This document shows positions 1 to 44,543 of a stretch of DNA of 64,000 nucleotides, piece after piece. Origin of the DNA: Caballeronia catudaia (GTDB lineage: Bacteria; Pseudomonadota; Gammaproteobacteria; Burkholderiales; Burkholderiaceae). The notes under the pieces were generated by a model. That model was not told where the DNA came from. It did no database searches and saw nothing but the letters and a program-made list of their open reading frames with translations. A program made the position numbers and the translations under genes. Location of the stretch: assembly GCF_001544755.2 (NCBI RefSeq), contig NZ_FCOF02000018.1, positions 1-64,000 of the forward strand, written 5' to 3'. Position 1 is the first letter of the stretch; each line of letters starts with the position of its first letter.

Positions 1-206
1 TGCGCGGCGATATCGAGCGTCGCTTCGACGGACAGGCCATCGGCGGGGGCGTCGAGCACGCGGCTATCGGGAATCAATGCGGCGGGTTGCGCGAGCCACG
101 TCGGATACCAGAACGAGCGGATCTCCCGCTTCGCCTGATAACGTGAACCGGCGCCGCCGTCGAAGCCGTCGAAGGACGGTGCCTGCAGCAAAAGCGTGTG
201 CTTCAT
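1..206 (-). CDS. hpnJ: HpnJ, hopanoid radical SAM protein (partial, 5' end only)
   Basis: Only the first 68 codons are in the window; the gene runs off the left edge. The N-terminus reads MKHTLLLQAPSFDGFDGGAG and continues through FWYPTWLAQPAALIPDSRV. I recognise this as the start of HpnJ, a cobalamin-binding radical SAM enzyme needed for the cyclitol ether head group of bacteriohopanetetrol. The radical SAM cysteines lie outside the window. It starts 22 bases after the stop of hpnI on the same strand, which fits an hpnI-hpnJ operon. Confidence 0.88.
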   Translation of the reverse strand, partial: MKHTLLLQAPSFDGFDGGAGSRYQAKREIRSFWYPTWLAQPAALIPDSRVLDAPADGLSVEATLDIAA

Positions 207-228: not shown

Positions 229-1431
229 TTATTGACTGTCGGAGGCGTTGGCGTCGTAGCGGTCGCGGGCATCGTCGAGCGGGATGCGCTCGCCGCGCCA
301 CACGACGCTCGAACCGAACGAAGCGGCGAGCCATTGCAGCCACATCAGCATGTCGCGCAATGGAATGAGCGGCAGGTCGCGCCAGAAAGCGCGCCACGAG
401 CGCGCGCTGCGCCAGTGCAGCACGAGCCGCGCGGAAAGGCCGAGCGACGTGCTCAGATCGACGATGGTATCGGCGATGGATTGCGACGGGTCCATGACGT
501 GCTCGAAGCCGAGTCCGAGCAATGCGCTCGTCAGCAGCCACGGCGTGGTGAAGCCGAGGCAGAGGAACGCGAATCCGATCGGCTCGATCGAGCGGATCGT
601 GCGCAGCCAGCGTGTCTCGCGATGCCAGAGCGACGCGAGATCGCTTTCGGTCACATCGGTTGCGACGACGACATCGGACAGCACCGTGCGCAAGCCGAGC
701 GCGTGCACGCGTTCGGCGAGCCAGTAGTCGTCGGCGAGGCAATCGCGCAGCGCCTCGAAGCCGCCGCTTTTCGCGAGCGTGCCGCGCCTGAGCGCGAGCG
801 TTGCGCCGAAGCCAAAGCGCGCGCGACCGAGCGCATGCGCCACATGCACGCAAGGCGCGAACCATTCGTCGATGAACAGCGCGCCGATGCGCGACCAGAA
901 GCCGCCCACGCGCCGCGCGCGATACGGGCACGTGACGATGCCGACGTCGGCATCGGCGAGCGGGGCCGTCACGCGCACCAGATAGTCCGGCTCGACGGCG
1001 ATATCGCTGTCCGCAATCACGATGAGGTCGTGCTTCGCGCGCGCGGCGAGACTGATCAGATTGCATACCTTCCGGTTGCTGCCATGCACGCTGCCATCGA
1101 CCACGAGTTCGATATCGCGCTGAGGCCACGCGCGCGCGAGACGCCGCACGACGTTGACGGCGGGATCGGATGGGCTCGCCACGCCGAACAGCAGTTGATA
1201 CGACGGATGCGTCTGCGTGCAGAACGTCTCGAGATTCGAGTAAAGGCGCGGCTCGTCGCCGCACAGCGGTTTGAGGACGCTGACAGAGCCGCACACGTCG
1301 ACGTGACGCCGCGCGCCCGATGCGGCGCGCGGGCCCGGATACACGAGCGCGGCAAGCGCCGCGTGACACGTCGCCGCGCAGCACAGCGCGATCAGCAGCC
1401 ACAGTACGAGCGGAAGCGATTGTGCGGTCAT
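229..1431 (-). CDS. hpnI: HpnI, hopanoid-associated family 2 glycosyltransferase
   Basis: About 400 aa. An N-terminal membrane helix (about residues 5-28) is followed by a ceramide-glucosyltransferase-like GT2 domain. It has VSVLKPLCGDEP near residue 50, the metal-binding pattern VIADSDIAVEPDYL, and DDYWLAERV in the acceptor region. C-terminal hydrophobic helices follow. HpnI is known to add N-acetylglucosamine to bacteriohopanetetrol before HpnK and HpnJ act. The start is ATG at 1431; a TTG at 1437 is possible and no clear Shine-Dalgarno separates them. A CTTAAG-N5-CTTATC box lies 48 bases upstream. Confidence 0.88.
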   Translation of the reverse strand: MTAQSLPLVLWLLIALCCAATCHAALAALVYPGPRAASGARRHVDVCGSVSVLKPLCGDEPRLYSNLETFCTQTHPSYQLLFGVASPSDPAVNVVRRLARAWPQRDIELVVDGSVHGSNRKVCNLISLAARAKHDLIVIADSDIAVEPDYLVRVTAPLADADVGIVTCPYRARRVGGFWSRIGALFIDEWFAPCVHVAHALGRARFGFGATLALRRGTLAKSGGFEALRDCLADDYWLAERVHALGLRTVLSDVVVATDVTESDLASLWHRETRWLRTIRSIEPIGFAFLCLGFTTPWLLTSALLGLGFEHVMDPSQSIADTIVDLSTSLGLSARLVLHWRSARSWRAFWRDLPLIPLRDMLMWLQWLAASFGSSVVWRGERIPLDDARDRYDANASDSQ

Positions 1432-1478
1432 GTGCAAGTCGCGTAGGCAGGGTGAACCCGCAGCCTGAGGCCGTGACG

Positions 1479-1495
1479 CTTAAGAAATGCTTATC
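1479..1495. promoter_or_regulatory. PmrA/QseB-like direct-repeat box upstream of hpnI
   Basis: The + strand reads CTTAAG, five bases, then CTTATC. This has the spacing and half-site of boxes bound by PmrA/QseB-type OmpR regulators (YTTAAK-N5-YTTAAK). It sits about 50 bases ahead of the hpnI start. The neighbouring response regulator has a better copy ahead of itself, so co-regulation is inferred. Confidence 0.5.
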
Positions 1496-1534
1496 GCCGG
1501 AGGAGTCGGCACAGCGAAATGTAAGGCGGTGCAC

Positions 1535-1563
1535 AAAAAAGAAGCCCGGCTCGATGCCGGGCT
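1535..1563 (-). terminator. Intrinsic terminator after the small membrane protein gene
   Basis: An 8-bp perfect stem (AGCCCGGC/GCCGGGCT, loop TCGAT) is followed on the minus strand by a run of T (1535-1540). It lies 25 bases after the stop of the gene at 1588 and before the hpnI box. Confidence 0.8.
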
Positions 1564-1587
1564 AAAAGAGATCGGGCGAGTTCCGAG

Positions 1588-1977
1588 TCAGGCCCGATCG
1601 CGTGGCACTCTGCTGCACGCCGCGCTGCGGGAACACGCATGCGCGGCGCTTTGCCGGGAGCCGGCGGGATGCAGCTCCGCATGGAGCTGCACGAGCCAGT
1701 CGCCCGGACCTGTTCCGTCGATTACCAGCCTGTCCGATGCCCAGGCGATGCGTCGCGCCGTGTGGGCCGCGTCGAATGCGAGCTTCGCGAAATGACGTAC
1801 GACGAGCACGATCCCCGCCGCGCTCGTCAGCGTCGCGAGCCGTATCGCGGTGCTTTGGAGCGCCTGCACGTGGCCCGCGCAGCCGCAGACGGTGAGCCAT
1901 GCCGCATCCGACGCGGCGACGCACAATGCAATCAGCACTGCATTCGCGCGCAGGCAAACGAGCGTCGAGGGTCGCAT
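1588..1977 (-). CDS. Small hydrophobic protein of unknown function
   Basis: 129 aa, not recognised. It has two hydrophobic stretches (about residues 10-32 and 42-62, the second ending in AAGIVLVVRH), then a short soluble part with DRLVIDGTGPGDWLVQLHAEL and a basic, Cys-rich tail. I chose ATG at 1977 because GGAG lies six bases upstream; an ATG two codons earlier would touch it. It is divergent from the two-component pair at 2173 and followed by a terminator. A CTTATG-N5-CTTAAG box is 62 bases upstream. It may be a membrane target or accessory protein of that system; this is inference. Confidence 0.6.
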   Translation of the reverse strand: MRPSTLVCLRANAVLIALCVAASDAAWLTVCGCAGHVQALQSTAIRLATLTSAAGIVLVVRHFAKLAFDAAHTARRIAWASDRLVIDGTGPGDWLVQLHAELHPAGSRQSAAHACSRSAACSRVPRDRA

Positions 1978-2038
1978 TGGCATCTCCGTTACTGCACCGC
2001 CACGAACGGGCGCGTCGTCGTATAGTGCGTGGGCCCAC

Positions 2039-2055
2039 CTTATGCGATCCTTAAG
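2039..2055. promoter_or_regulatory. PmrA/QseB-like box in the divergent promoter region
   Basis: The + strand reads CTTATG, five bases, then CTTAAG. It lies between the small membrane protein gene (start 1977) and the response regulator (start 2173), and has the same half-site and spacing as the boxes at 1479 and 2108. Confidence 0.5.
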
Positions 2056-2107
2056 CCACGAGCGCGCGCCCTGATTACGGGGACACAGTGTGCGGCCGCA
2101 CGCATTG

Positions 2108-2124
2108 CTTAAGTGGCGCTTAAG
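2108..2124. promoter_or_regulatory. Perfect CTTAAG-N5-CTTAAG box upstream of the two-component operon
   Basis: Two CTTAAG half-sites separated by TGGCG, 49 bases upstream of the response regulator start. This matches the direct-repeat boxes of PmrA/QseB-type regulators and suggests autoregulation. Confidence 0.6.
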
Positions 2125-2172: not shown

Positions 2173-2835
2173 ATGCGCCTGTTACTGGTGGAGGACGACG
2201 AGATGATCGCGGAGAGCGTGCTGGCCGCGCTGCGCCGCGCCGGTTACACCGTGGACTGGGCGCAGGACGGCCGGGCCGCGGAGCTTTCGCTCGGCAACGA
2301 CGTGTACGACCTCGTGCTGCTGGACCTGACGCTGCCGAAACGCGACGGCATCGACGTGCTCGCGAGCTACCGCAAGCAGGGCGGCGACGCGCCCGTGATG
2401 ATCCTGACCGCGCGCGATGGCATCGACGACCGCATTCGCGGCCTCGATACCGGCGCGGACGACTATCTGATGAAGCCCTTCGATCTCGACGAGCTCGCCG
2501 CCCGAGTGCGCGCGCTCCTGCGACGGCGCACGGGGCACAAGCATCCGGTGTACACGCATGGCGAATTGTCGCTCGATCCCGCCGCGCACGAAGCCAGCAA
2601 GGGCGGTGTGGCGCTCAATCTCGTGCCGCGCGAATTCTCGCTGTTGCAGGCGCTGATCGAAGAGCCGTCGCGCGTGTTTCGCCGCAACGAGCTCGAGGAA
2701 AAGCTGTACGGCTGGGGTGAGGAAGTGGGCAGTAACGCGATCGAAGTCCACGTGCACAGCCTGCGGCGCAAGATCGGCGCGGAGGAGATCGTGACGGTGC
2801 GCGGCGTCGGCTATCGCCTGAAGAGGATCGGATGA
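2173..2835 (+). CDS. OmpR-family response regulator (QseB/PmrA-like)
   Basis: 220 aa, full length. The N-terminal receiver domain starts MRLLLVEDDE, with the phospho-acceptor Asp in LVLLDLTLPKRDG (about residue 51), LTARDG and a K in DDYLMKPFD. The C-terminal winged-helix domain ends in VHSLRRKIG and VRGVGYRL, typical of the OmpR type. I chose the start at 2173, with GGAGA 6-10 bases upstream. It overlaps the histidine kinase gene by four bases (ATGA), so the pair is co-translated. The direct-repeat box at 2108-2124 suggests autoregulation, and similar boxes suggest that hpnI is a target. Confidence 0.92.
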   Translation: MRLLLVEDDEMIAESVLAALRRAGYTVDWAQDGRAAELSLGNDVYDLVLLDLTLPKRDGIDVLASYRKQGGDAPVMILTARDGIDDRIRGLDTGADDYLMKPFDLDELAARVRALLRRRTGHKHPVYTHGELSLDPAAHEASKGGVALNLVPREFSLLQALIEEPSRVFRRNELEEKLYGWGEEVGSNAIEVHVHSLRRKIGAEEIVTVRGVGYRLKRIG

Positions 2836-4211
2836 CATCGATCCGCCGATGGCTGCTCGGCTGGCTCATCTGCGGGCTTGGCATCGCATGTCTGATCGCG
2901 GGCATCGGCATTTTCAACACCGTGCGGGTCGAGGCGGGCGAGCTCTTCGACTACGAACTGCGCACCGTCGCGCTCTCGCTGCCGCACAACATCGGCGCCG
3001 ACGACGTCGCCCAGGGACGCAGTCCCGAGCTGCACGGCATCGCGGACGACCGGCTCGTCATCGACATATGGGACCGCTCGGGCCGCCTCATCTATCACTC
3101 GCCGCACGAACCGGCGTTGCCGCGCTTCGGCGAAGGTTTTCAATCGGCCGACCGCGAAGGCTATCGCTGGCGCGCGTTCGGCGTGCAGCAGCCGGACCGC
3201 TTCGTGCAGGTGTCGCAACCGTATTTCATTCGCGACGAGCTCGTCGTCACGCTCGCGCTGCGCACGATCTGGCCGTTCGCGCTGCTCATTCCGGTGATCG
3301 TCGTGATCGTGCTCGTCGTCGTCGCGCGCGGGCTGTCGCCGGTGCGCGGGCTGTCGCAATCGCTCGCCACGCGCTCGCCGGAATCGCTCGAACCCATTGC
3401 ACTGGCGAAGCCGATGCCGGACGAGCTGCGCCCGCTCGTCGACGCGCTGAACGGCCTGCTCGCGCGCCTGAACGAGGCCTCGCAGGCGCAACGAACCTTC
3501 GTCGCGGATGCGGCGCATGAACTGCGCACGCCGCTCACCGCGCTGAAGCTGCAGATCCAGAGCGCGATCAGCGACGGTTCGCTGCAGGTCGAGCATGCGA
3601 CGATCGCGAAGATCGATGGCCGCCTGAACCGGCTCATCCATCTCGCGCAACAACTGCTCAGCATGGCGCGCGAAGACGCCGCGCCCGAGGCGGCCATCGC
3701 GCCGATGAGCCTGCGCGCGCTCTGCGAAATGCGCGTCGGCGATTTCTCACTGCTGGCGGAGGCCAGAACGATCGATCTCGGTCTCGAACTCGAGAACGCA
3801 CTGAGCGACGACGACGCGTTCGTCATCATGGGCGACACGCACGCGCTCACCGCGCTCGTGAACAATCTGCTCGACAACGCGGTTCGCCATACGCCGGTCG
3901 GCGGCCGCGTCGACGTGACCTTGCGGCGCGAAGCGCAGGGCATCGCGCTGACGGTGCTCGATTCCGGAGCAGGCATTCCGGAAAGCGAGATCGACCGCGT
4001 GTGCGACCGGTTTTATCGTTGCAGCGGCACGTCGGGGCACGGAAGCGGGCTCGGACTCGCCATCGCGCATCGCGTCGCGCAACGGCATCATGCGACGCTC
4101 GCCGTGAAGAACCGCGAAGGCGCGAGCGGGCTCAGCGTATCGGTGCGCGGCCTGCGCGCGGTGACGTCATCGGCGCGCGCGAGCGATATTGTCAGCGGAA
4201 TGCATGCGTGA
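2832..4211 (+). CDS. Two-component sensor histidine kinase (QseC/TctE-like)
   Basis: 459 aa inner-membrane kinase. Helix 1 is at about residues 7-28 and helix 2 at about 145-165, with a periplasmic sensor of about 115 residues between. The phospho-accepting His is in ADAAHELRTPLTALK (about residue 230). ATPase boxes are NNLLDNAVRHTP (N box), LDSGAGIPESE (G1) and GHGSGLGLAI (G2). It pairs with the response regulator just upstream by a four-base overlap. The signal is unknown; relatives sense polymyxin, metal ions or carboxylates. Confidence 0.92.
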   Translation: MTSIRRWLLGWLICGLGIACLIAGIGIFNTVRVEAGELFDYELRTVALSLPHNIGADDVAQGRSPELHGIADDRLVIDIWDRSGRLIYHSPHEPALPRFGEGFQSADREGYRWRAFGVQQPDRFVQVSQPYFIRDELVVTLALRTIWPFALLIPVIVVIVLVVVARGLSPVRGLSQSLATRSPESLEPIALAKPMPDELRPLVDALNGLLARLNEASQAQRTFVADAAHELRTPLTALKLQIQSAISDGSLQVEHATIAKIDGRLNRLIHLAQQLLSMAREDAAPEAAIAPMSLRALCEMRVGDFSLLAEARTIDLGLELENALSDDDAFVIMGDTHALTALVNNLLDNAVRHTPVGGRVDVTLRREAQGIALTVLDSGAGIPESEIDRVCDRFYRCSGTSGHGSGLGLAIAHRVAQRHHATLAVKNREGASGLSVSVRGLRAVTSSARASDIVSGMHA

Positions 4212-42564: not shown

Positions 42565-44543
42565 TGAACGATTTATCCCTGTCGGCCGTGGACGCGCGCG
42601 TGTCGGGCGCTCCGCTCGATACCGCAATCCACCAGGCCACCGATGCGCTGCTCGCGGCGCAGCATCGCGACGGCTACTGGCTGTACGAACTCGAAGCCGA
42701 CGCAACCATTCCGGCTGAATACGTGCTGCTCGTCCACTATCTCGGCGAGACCGCCGACGACAAGCTCGAAGCGAAGATCGGCCGCTATCTGCGGCGCATT
42801 CAGCGCGAGGACGGCGGCTGGCCGCTTTTCACCGACGGCGCGATGGACGTCTCCGCGACCGTGAAGGCGTATTTCGCGCTGAAGATGATCGGCGATTCGC
42901 CCGACGCCGAGCACATGCAGCGCGCCCGCCGCGCGATTCTCGCCGCGGGCGGCGCGGAAAAGGTGAACGTGTTCACGCGCATCCTGCTCGCGCTGTTCGG
43001 CGTGGTGTCGTGGCGCGCGGTGCCGATGATGCCCGTCGAGATCATGCGTCTGCCGATGTGGTTCCCGTTCCATCTGTCGAAGGTGTCGTACTGGGCGCGC
43101 ACGGTGATCGTGCCGATGCTCGTGCTCAACGCGAAGCGCCCGCGCGCGCGCAATCCGCGCGGCGTGCGCATCGACGAAGTGTTCACGAATCCGCCGGTCA
43201 ACACCGGCATGCCGTCGCGCTCCGGGCATCAGAGCCGCGGCTGGTTCGCGTTCTTCCGTGTCGTCGATTCGATCCTGCGCGCAGCCGACCCGCTGCTGCC
43301 GAAAGCGGGCCGCGAGCGCGCGATCGATGAAGCCGTGCGCTTCGTGGATGAGCGCCTGAACGGCGAGGACGGCCTCGGCGCGATTTTCCCGGCGATGGCC
43401 AACTCGGTCATGATGTACGACGTGCTTGGGCTTCCGCCGGAGCATCCGAACCGCGCGATCGCGCGCAAGTCGATCGACAAACTGCTGGTCATCGACGAAG
43501 CCGACGACGGCGAAGCGTATTGCCAGCCGTGCCTTTCACCGGTGTGGGATACGTCGCTCGCGGCGCACGCGCTGCTCGAAACGGGCGAACCGAAGGCGCG
43601 CGCGGCGGTCACGCGCGGCCTCGAATGGCTGGTGCCGCTGCAGGTTCTCGACGTGCGCGGCGACTGGGTTTCGCGCCGCCCGAACGTGCGGCCGGGCGGC
43701 TGGGCGTTCCAGTTCGCGAACCCGCATTACCCGGACGTCGACGACACCGCGGTCGTCGCGATGGCGATGGAGCGCGCCGACCGCGAGAACGGCACCGCGA
43801 TGTACGGCGAATCCATCGCGCGGGCGCGCGAGTGGATCGTCGGCATGCAGAGCAGCGACGGCGGCTGGGGCGCGTTCGAGCCGGAGAACACGCAGTACTA
43901 CCTGAACAACATCCCGTTTTCGGACCACGGCGCGTTGCTCGACCCGCCGACCGTCGATGTCTCCGCGCGGTGTCTTTCGATGCTGGCGCAGCTCGGCGAG
44001 ACATCGCTGAACAGCGAACCGGCGCGGCGCGCGTTCGACTACATCGTGAACGATCAGGAACGCGACGGAAGCTGGTACGGCCGCTGGGGCCTGAACTACA
44101 TCTACGGCACCTGGTCGGCGATGTCCGCGCTGAACGCAGCCGGCGTCGCGCCGACGGACCCGCGCATGACCCGCGCGGCGGGCTGGCTCATCGGCATCCA
44201 GAACGCGGACGGCGGCTGGGGCGAGGACGGCGAGAGCTACAAGCTCGACTATCGCGGCTACGAACAGGCGCCGAGCACGTCGTCGCAGACCGCGTGGGCG
44301 CTGCTCGGGCTGATGGCGGCGGGCATGGTCGGGCATCCGGCGGTCGCGCGCGGCATCGACTATCTGCTGAAGACGCAGCAGACGCACGGCCTGTGGGACG
44401 AAACGCGCTTCACCGCGACGGGTTTCCCGCGCGTGTTCTATCTGCGCTACCACGGCTATCGCAAGTTCTTCCCGCTGTGGGCGCTCGCGCGCTACCGCAA
44501 TCTGACGCGCGAAGGTCTCACGCGCGTGACGGCGGCGATGTGA
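42564..44543 (+). CDS. shc: Squalene-hopene cyclase
   Basis: 659 aa. It cyclises squalene to hopene. The catalytic acid motif is DVDDTA (about residue 394), the D-x-D-D-T-A of bacterial cyclases. Several QW repeats (for example GDWVSRRPNVRPGGWAFQF, MQSSDGGWGAFEPENT and QNADGGWGEDGESY) and the end GFPRVFYLRYHGYRKFFPLWALARY are visible. It is membrane-bound at a single face. The start ATG overlaps hpnE stop by one base and the end overlaps hpnG by four bases (GTGA). Confidence 0.97.
   Translation: MNDLSLSAVDARVSGAPLDTAIHQATDALLAAQHRDGYWLYELEADATIPAEYVLLVHYLGETADDKLEAKIGRYLRRIQREDGGWPLFTDGAMDVSATVKAYFALKMIGDSPDAEHMQRARRAILAAGGAEKVNVFTRILLALFGVVSWRAVPMMPVEIMRLPMWFPFHLSKVSYWARTVIVPMLVLNAKRPRARNPRGVRIDEVFTNPPVNTGMPSRSGHQSRGWFAFFRVVDSILRAADPLLPKAGRERAIDEAVRFVDERLNGEDGLGAIFPAMANSVMMYDVLGLPPEHPNRAIARKSIDKLLVIDEADDGEAYCQPCLSPVWDTSLAAHALLETGEPKARAAVTRGLEWLVPLQVLDVRGDWVSRRPNVRPGGWAFQFANPHYPDVDDTAVVAMAMERADRENGTAMYGESIARAREWIVGMQSSDGGWGAFEPENTQYYLNNIPFSDHGALLDPPTVDVSARCLSMLAQLGETSLNSEPARRAFDYIVNDQERDGSWYGRWGLNYIYGTWSAMSALNAAGVAPTDPRMTRAAGWLIGIQNADGGWGEDGESYKLDYRGYEQAPSTSSQTAWALLGLMAAGMVGHPAVARGIDYLLKTQQTHGLWDETRFTATGFPRVFYLRYHGYRKFFPLWALARYRNLTREGLTRVTAAM

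Follow-up and report, generated by a model that had tools for sequence, protein, structure and literature searches.

The described two-component systems closest to the locus considered here are PmrAB (BasRS) and QseBC. The PmrA box of Salmonella and Klebsiella consists of head-to-tail CTTAAG/XTTAAT half-sites set 5 bp apart (PMC3973317); PmrA contacts bases through N188, N196, and R210, and at pbgP, a promoter activated by PmrA, the half-1 site is where the -35 element lies (PMC4660055). QseBC of B. pseudomallei (BPSL0806-0807) has been studied for its role in motility, and the text of that study does not contain the word hopanoid (PMC9949665). Hopanoids are bacterial lipids resembling sterols. 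In the synthesis of their head groups, HpnI transfers GlcNAc onto BHT, HpnK carries out the deacetylation, and HpnJ forms the cyclitol ether (PMC12583986, citing Schmerk et al. 2015). In the Burkholderia cepacia complex, polymyxin resistance has been linked to hopanoid genes, hpnJ being one of them (PMC4244539, citing Malott et al. 2012). A literature search (titles and the starts of abstracts, with few subscription papers) returned no work on a two-component regulator of hopanoid head groups. To our knowledge, no such regulator has been described.

The window (the whole 64-kb stretch analysed here, from a soil bacterium of the genus Caballeronia) carries three boxes of the form CTTAAG-N5-CTTAAG, and each was found where the first-pass annotation had placed it. 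One precedes hpnI (1479–1495, minus strand; CTTAAGAAATGCTTATC, reading GATAAG-CATTT-CTTAAG in hpnI sense, with 2 of the 12 specified bases off), one faces the gene of a small membrane protein (2039–2055, minus strand; CTTATGCGATCCTTAAG, CTTAAG-GATCG-CATAAG in the sense of that gene, 1 mismatch), and one, a perfect copy, stands before the response regulator that we call RR_A (2108–2124, plus strand; CTTAAGTGGCGCTTAAG). The hpnI box, with its GATAAG half-site, is the weakest of the three; since CTTAAG is its own reverse complement, the orientation of a perfect box cannot be read. All three have the layout of a PmrA box, in which 5 bp separate two YTTAAK-like half-sites, and, at up to 2 mismatches to CTTAAG-N5-CTTAAG, they are the only sites in the 64 kb, while shuffled windows contained 0.15 such sites on average and never three (0/100). 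A genome-wide scan gave a divided answer. The strict form was enriched, both in the window's genome (3 per strand versus 0) and across 58 genomes (130 places versus 21 with the reversed pattern), whereas the loose form YTTAAK-N5-YTTAAK at 1 mismatch showed no whole-genome enrichment (36/34 places versus 66/73 for the reversed control) and was therefore dropped as a regulon finder.

RR_A (2173–2835, plus strand; 220 aa) is a PmrA/QseB-like response regulator of the OmpR/PhoB family, with Response_reg and Trans_reg_C matches, and its closest solved relative is PmrA/BasR. Its earlier description as a regulator of PmrA/QseB type stands as a resemblance that includes most base contacts: in an ungapped alignment with PmrA/BasR, RR_A keeps N188 and R210, and also V192, H193, and H195, while N196 is replaced by S. 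Its scores lie below the cut-offs of both equivalog families, with 237.4 bits against a cut-off of 330 for PmrA (NF007928) and 236.5 bits against 345 for QseB (NF007663). The sensor histidine kinase (2832–4211, plus strand) is QseC-like over nearly its whole length, the QseC equivalog (NF007664) matching residues 37–438 at 222.3 bits across profile positions 35–440 of 442, below the cut-off of 475; the PmrB model matches it only from residue 147. Five regulators at least 45% identical, RR_A included, are encoded in the window's genome. The remaining genes also answered to their earlier descriptions (hpnI, the start of hpnJ, the regulator with its kinase, and the small membrane protein), as judged from profile matches and a conserved family.

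Translated from the ATG common to its relatives, hpnI (229–1431, minus strand) encodes a BHT N-acetylglucosaminyltransferase of 400 aa that scores 443.3 bits against TIGR03472, above the cut-off of 310. The contig (C98) starts at window base 1, inside hpnJ, so that the window holds the first 68 residues of HpnJ (3–206, minus strand), which reach 115.7 bits against TIGR03471 over profile positions 2–66 of 472 (the full-length cut-off is 577.6 bits). C98 (window 1–206) and a second contig, C86 (L161 6–212), stop at the identical hpnJ residue, and a search of the assembly at E 1e-15 did not recover the missing part of either copy; the complete hpnJ in this genome lies in the operon on a third contig, C72, and nowhere else. 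The window's genome has three copies of hpnI, two of them boxed (window and C72) and one unboxed (C86), and because the C86 copy has no box, not every hpnI copy is controlled in this way. The sole squalene-hopene cyclase gene found in the genome also lies in the window (42618–44507, plus strand; TIGR01507, 769.1 bits), with no box near it there.

The annotation had linked the box to hpnI and hpnJ together. Its hpnI half was upheld, the box being conserved in relatives, and its hpnJ half needs qualification: at the hpnI locus, C. temeraria and C. glebae have no hpnJ, the hpnJ of C. arvi, which was the closest relative seen, has lost its middle to an internal deletion, and that of the window is cut. 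By comparison, hpnK is present with boxed hpnI at 21 of the 24 named loci, and a contig end truncates two of the other three. Since hpnJ is cut by the contig end, the cyclitol ether is not assured as a product, and since hpnK is steady and hpnJ sometimes missing, the product under control may include glucosaminyl-BHT alongside the cyclitol ether. Judged from gene content, glucosaminylation is the safest reading of the controlled output, with the cyclitol ether a likely further one.

Conservation of the hpnI box in relatives had been set beforehand as a test, and the box proved to be kept. Our sample comprised 58 genomes of the genus; HpnI was matched in 47 of them, and the 30 loci read included one lineage-A locus per genome in L026–L049. 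A box with at most 2 mismatches lay within 300 bp before hpnI in 23 of these 24 lineage-A loci, compared with 0.33% of 2400 shuffles, although the loci are related and the counts are not independent trials. At 0 or 1 mismatch, a spacing of 5 occurred in 16 of the 24 loci and the other spacings from 2 to 9 in none, while at 2 mismatches spacing 4 appeared in 2 loci, spacing 8 in 2, and spacing 9 in 8. With two further genes, a second lineage-A copy in G004 and the G057 copy, the set comes to 26, of which 25 are boxed at up to 2 mismatches. All 13 loci with hpnI less than 1 kb from RR_A have the box (at most 2 mismatches), and so do 10 of the 11 with no RR_A in the stretch read, seven of them perfectly; among these non-adjacent loci, RR_A lies 2.5–7 kb from hpnI in G001, G010, and G051, about 320 kb away in G039, and on a separate contig of a draft assembly in the rest. 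The one lineage-A locus of the 24 with no box before hpnI (L039) belongs to 'Candidatus Burkholderia verschuerenii', a leaf-nodule symbiont. In G015 (L259), the hpnI beside RR_A is broken into separated remnants, and the locus still has an hpnK match and the two boxes on the regulator side.

In an HpnI tree of 92 rows (built without L245, which is too short), the boxed Caballeronia copies form one clade (support 98/91) in which 26 of 27 rows are boxed. The sister clade (L050–L055, 60–65% identical) has no hpnI box at 1 mismatch, and a distant 2-mismatch site occurs in L055. No box was found before hpnI in genus g11, probably Burkholderia sensu stricto (4/4 read), or in the Trinickia hpnI rows; RR_A itself is found at 74–83% identity in genera g20 and g25, the latter being Trinickia as judged by identical rows. 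A perfect YTTAAK box (CTTAATACTTCCTTAAG) stands about 65 bp before another hpnI in genus g3 (L246), in one of three rows of that genus. Regulator and gene occur together: RR_A is found at 85% identity or more in 25 of 25 genomes with lineage-A hpnI, while none of the nine genomes without an 80% RR_A match carries it (Fisher p = 0.007; one of the nine, G042, probably reflects a contig break). The regulator's own box precedes RR_A in 28 of 30 orthologue loci read, and the small-gene box is present at 27 of the 30.

The geometry of the hpnI promoter is likewise conserved. In relatives, the box reads CTTAAG-CRTYY-CTTAAG in hpnI sense, an 11-bp tandem repeat, and in the window it is followed after 11 bp by the -10-like hexamer CAGGCT (1462–1467, minus strand). 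CAGNCT occurs at exactly this distance in 23 of 26 boxed hpnI or hpnI2 promoters (hpnI2 being a diverged HpnI, 34–37% identical to that of the window in the cases described below), while the box-hexamer unit sits anywhere from 47 to 198 bp ahead of the start codon. Two of the three boxed promoters without CAGNCT have CACTATA at the same offset, and this is the -10-like element of the small-gene promoter (2021–2027, minus strand in the window; present in 12 of 13 syntenic rows, with CACCATA in the other), so in these two cases hpnI seems to have captured the boxed promoter of the small gene. An intrinsic terminator (1534–1563, minus strand; an inverted repeat with a T run) separates the small gene from the promoter of hpnI, and inspection by eye showed it in each of the 13 syntenic rows. 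When 17-mers were ranked by conservation across the 13 syntenic loci, the coding end of the small gene came first, the regulator box second, the small-gene box third, and the hpnI box twelfth; in one of these loci (L035), most of the small gene is lost and the boxes are kept.

A search of the 58 genomes for exact matches to the composite TAAG-N5-CTTAAG-N11-CAGNCT returned 39 places, versus 2 for the reversed control, and 32 of the 39 precede hpnI or hpnI2 when mapped by HpnI match coordinates. Twenty-one precede lineage-A hpnI (21 of 26 such genes), as expected of a pattern built from these promoters. The other 11 precede hpnI2 (11 of 28 hpnI2 matches), three of which had been seen before the search. 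The window's genome has the composite in two places only, before hpnI in the window and before hpnI2 on C72, where the gene order is hpnI2-hpnL-hpnJ; the C86 copy has none. Seven of the 39 places precede neither gene: three of these (G038, G040, and G049) are nearly identical in sequence, and one, perhaps a remnant, is at the RR_A locus of G054, a genome that lacks hpnI.

Several other accounts of these boxes have to be weighed. Chance likeness, or an unrelated promoter motif, would sit easily with the absence of genome-wide enrichment of the loose YTTAAK pattern, but the shuffle, spacing, and reversed-pattern controls rule out a chance origin, and we regard this account as vanishingly improbable. 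It is also very improbable that hpnI hitch-hiked beside the two-component system and kept its box by proximity. Although hpnI lies less than 1 kb from RR_A in 13 genomes, the terminator parts the small gene from the hpnI promoter, the box and -10-like element persist with hpnI elsewhere (seven perfect), and the composite precedes hpnI2 on other contigs; non-adjacent boxed hpnI together with the hpnI2 composite rules out hitch-hiking by adjacency.

The identity of the reader and the direction of its effect are less firmly settled by these data. A functional box might be read by a paralogous QseB/PmrA-like regulator, such as the one encoded on contig C84 beside degP, or be subject to cross-talk. 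Four regulators besides RR_A are at least 45% identical and could read similar sites, and the C84 system has boxes of its own, TTTAAGAAAGGTTTAAG 72 bp before degP/htrA (L170 3587–3603) and GTTAAGTCCCGTTTAAG before its own regulator, together with recognition residues nearly like those of RR_A (V192, Y193, H195, S196, and K199, compared with V, H, H, S, and R). Both C84 boxes, however, are of the TTTAAG type, while RR_A has a CTTAAG-type box in front of its own gene in 28 of 30 orthologue loci read and lineage-A hpnI is found solely in genomes with RR_A, and we judge a paralogous reader to be quite unlikely. Repression, in which the regulator would bind and hold off hpnI, for instance delaying glycosylation until stress, is unlikely as well, if somewhat easier to credit. 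The 11 bp between box and -10-like element would fit steric blocking, and QseB can act both ways. Against this, CAGNCT would make a weak -10 element, as expected of an activated promoter, and under PmrA activation the -35 element of pbgP lies at the half-1 site (PMC4660055).

Our preferred reading, which we consider probable on the strength of promoter sequence and gene neighbourhood, is that the box is a tandem site of RR_A type driving hpnI, the regulator itself, and the small gene under the QseC-like kinase. The binder would be a PmrA/QseB-like response regulator, most likely RR_A; we infer that it activates rather than represses. Phosphorylation by the QseC-like kinase would let RR_A dock, as a head-to-tail dimer, immediately before the -10-like element. 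Both the regulator gene and the small membrane protein gene would then be transcribed more strongly, and hpnI, along with hpnJ and/or hpnK, would be turned on from a promoter that belongs to hpnI. The hpnI2-hpnL-hpnJ operon on C72, with the same composite promoter, would be a second target. The predicted signal is envelope stress and the predicted outcome more glucosaminyl hopanoid heads, with the cyclitol ether as well where hpnJ works; in other members of the genus, an RND pump would be induced together with the head-group genes.

The small membrane protein (1588–1977, minus strand; 129 aa) has two hydrophobic stretches, identified by eye, and a WLV motif. It matches no NCBIfam or Pfam model, and Pfam gave no match for three of four further family members and one below the cut-off for the fourth. 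In a 12-member alignment, the other 11 proteins are 26–73% identical to that of the window; the family spans Caballeronia and Paraburkholderia and has invariant residues that include W94 and V96. In relatives, an operon for an RND pump (outer membrane factor, HlyD, and an AcrB-like protein) diverges from RR_A across perfect boxes. A box at up to 1 mismatch precedes this operon in 10 of 12 pump genomes (none in G006 and G056; in G020 the operon is split across two contigs), and in two of the ten (G030 and G048) it is present with the pump apart from RR_A. No such pump was found in the window's genome at E 1e-200, with 14 of 25 first-look candidates scored.

Other neighbours of strict boxes were read among the matches listed, in genomes up to G034. 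A perfect box stands beside a DsbA-like gene in nine loci (L182, L188, L191, L193, L206, L208, L212, L213, and L218), and a tenth genome has a near-perfect one between a SPOR-domain gene and a DsbA-like gene (L162 4397–4413). Perfect boxes also occur 98–137 bp before the gene of a protein of about 410 aa with a weak NHL-repeat match (L163 5482–5498, L180 7810–7826, and L209 3216–3232). At L283 (10139–11859) and L296 (2071–2896), a perfect YTTAAK-type box precedes the gene of a DUF4118 protein and that of an alpha/beta hydrolase; a relative of the small protein is adjacent and the RND pump lies upstream (Pfam was run for L283 only). Perfect boxes near a FUR-family gene, a TadE gene, and a 2CSK_N kinase gene were seen in one or two genomes and may be due to chance. 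Among the part of all box neighbours put through Pfam, none resembled a lipid A gene.

A comparable arrangement is found in Paraburkholderia with a different regulator. The QseB-like RR_B is 48–53% identical to RR_A, forms its own clade at 100/100 support, and has VHSN at residues 192, 193, 195, and 196 where RR_A has VHHS. It diverges from an operon containing hpnI and hpnK across CTTAAGGTTTCCTTCAG, and its box takes the form CTTAAG-N5-CTTCAG; the gene that lies ahead of hpnI, next to this box, has a match to the small family in two loci only (L117, 25%; L243, 32%). The same RND pump, 84–90% identical, occurs in the flanks of four of the seven named RR_B loci. In a Nevskiaceae MAG, CTTAAGAATTCCTTAAT lies 127 bp upstream of hpnI, with a 59% regulator and pump genes nearby. 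Among 45 named loci (L086–L130, which partly overlap the genome set, so that the two sets are not additive), a regulator at least 45% identical was found in the fetched flanks of 17 of the 24 boxed hpnI genes and of 1 of the 21 without a box, in rows that are not independent and in some cases have short flanks. The single unboxed hpnI with a regulator, L108, has an RR_B box more than 1 kb upstream. At L310 (G153), only a small-family gene separates an RR_B box from RR_A; as suggested by this arrangement, RR_B could possibly control RR_A in a cascade.

The association of a PmrA/QseB-type box with hopanoid head-group genes is well supported by these comparisons, and it suggests that hopanoids may be remodelled on demand by an envelope-stress sensor. 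More tentatively, and with some doubt, the loci could represent a recurrent envelope-defence module, a hopanoid counterpart of PmrAB and lipid A, in which one PmrA/QseB-like system would govern the glucosaminylation of hopanoids together with an RND pump and a new family of two-helix membrane proteins that partner HpnI, with RR_A in Caballeronia and RR_B in Paraburkholderia each having been recruited and the Nevskiaceae MAG alike. A stress-type promoter conserved in front of hpnI would open the timing and purpose of hopanoid glycosylation to direct testing, and it points to the small membrane protein as a partner. It also bears on the use of BHT cyclitol ether as a biomarker, the abundance of which may reflect stress and not taxonomy.

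Set against described systems, the locus resembles PmrAB in its OmpR-family regulator, the 5-bp separation of its half-sites, and the retention of N188 and R210, but RR_A scores below the PmrA cut-off, the kinase is QseC-like and not PmrB-like, and the predicted targets encode enzymes for hopanoid head groups, an RND pump, and a small membrane protein. It resembles QseBC in the QseB score of RR_A (236.5 bits) and the QseC match of the kinase over residues 37–438, although both proteins fall under the equivalog cut-offs (345 and 475). From the HpnI-HpnK-HpnJ pathway it takes an HpnI scoring above its model's cut-off and, in relatives, the HpnK and mostly also the HpnJ that follow, but differs in its duplicated gene copies, some with a stress-type promoter, and in the occasional loss of hpnJ. 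In Pseudomonas, control of the ParRS type places efflux and LPS modification under one two-component system. The Caballeronia locus appears to couple an RND pump with surface-lipid modification in the same manner, except that the lipid here would be a hopanoid.
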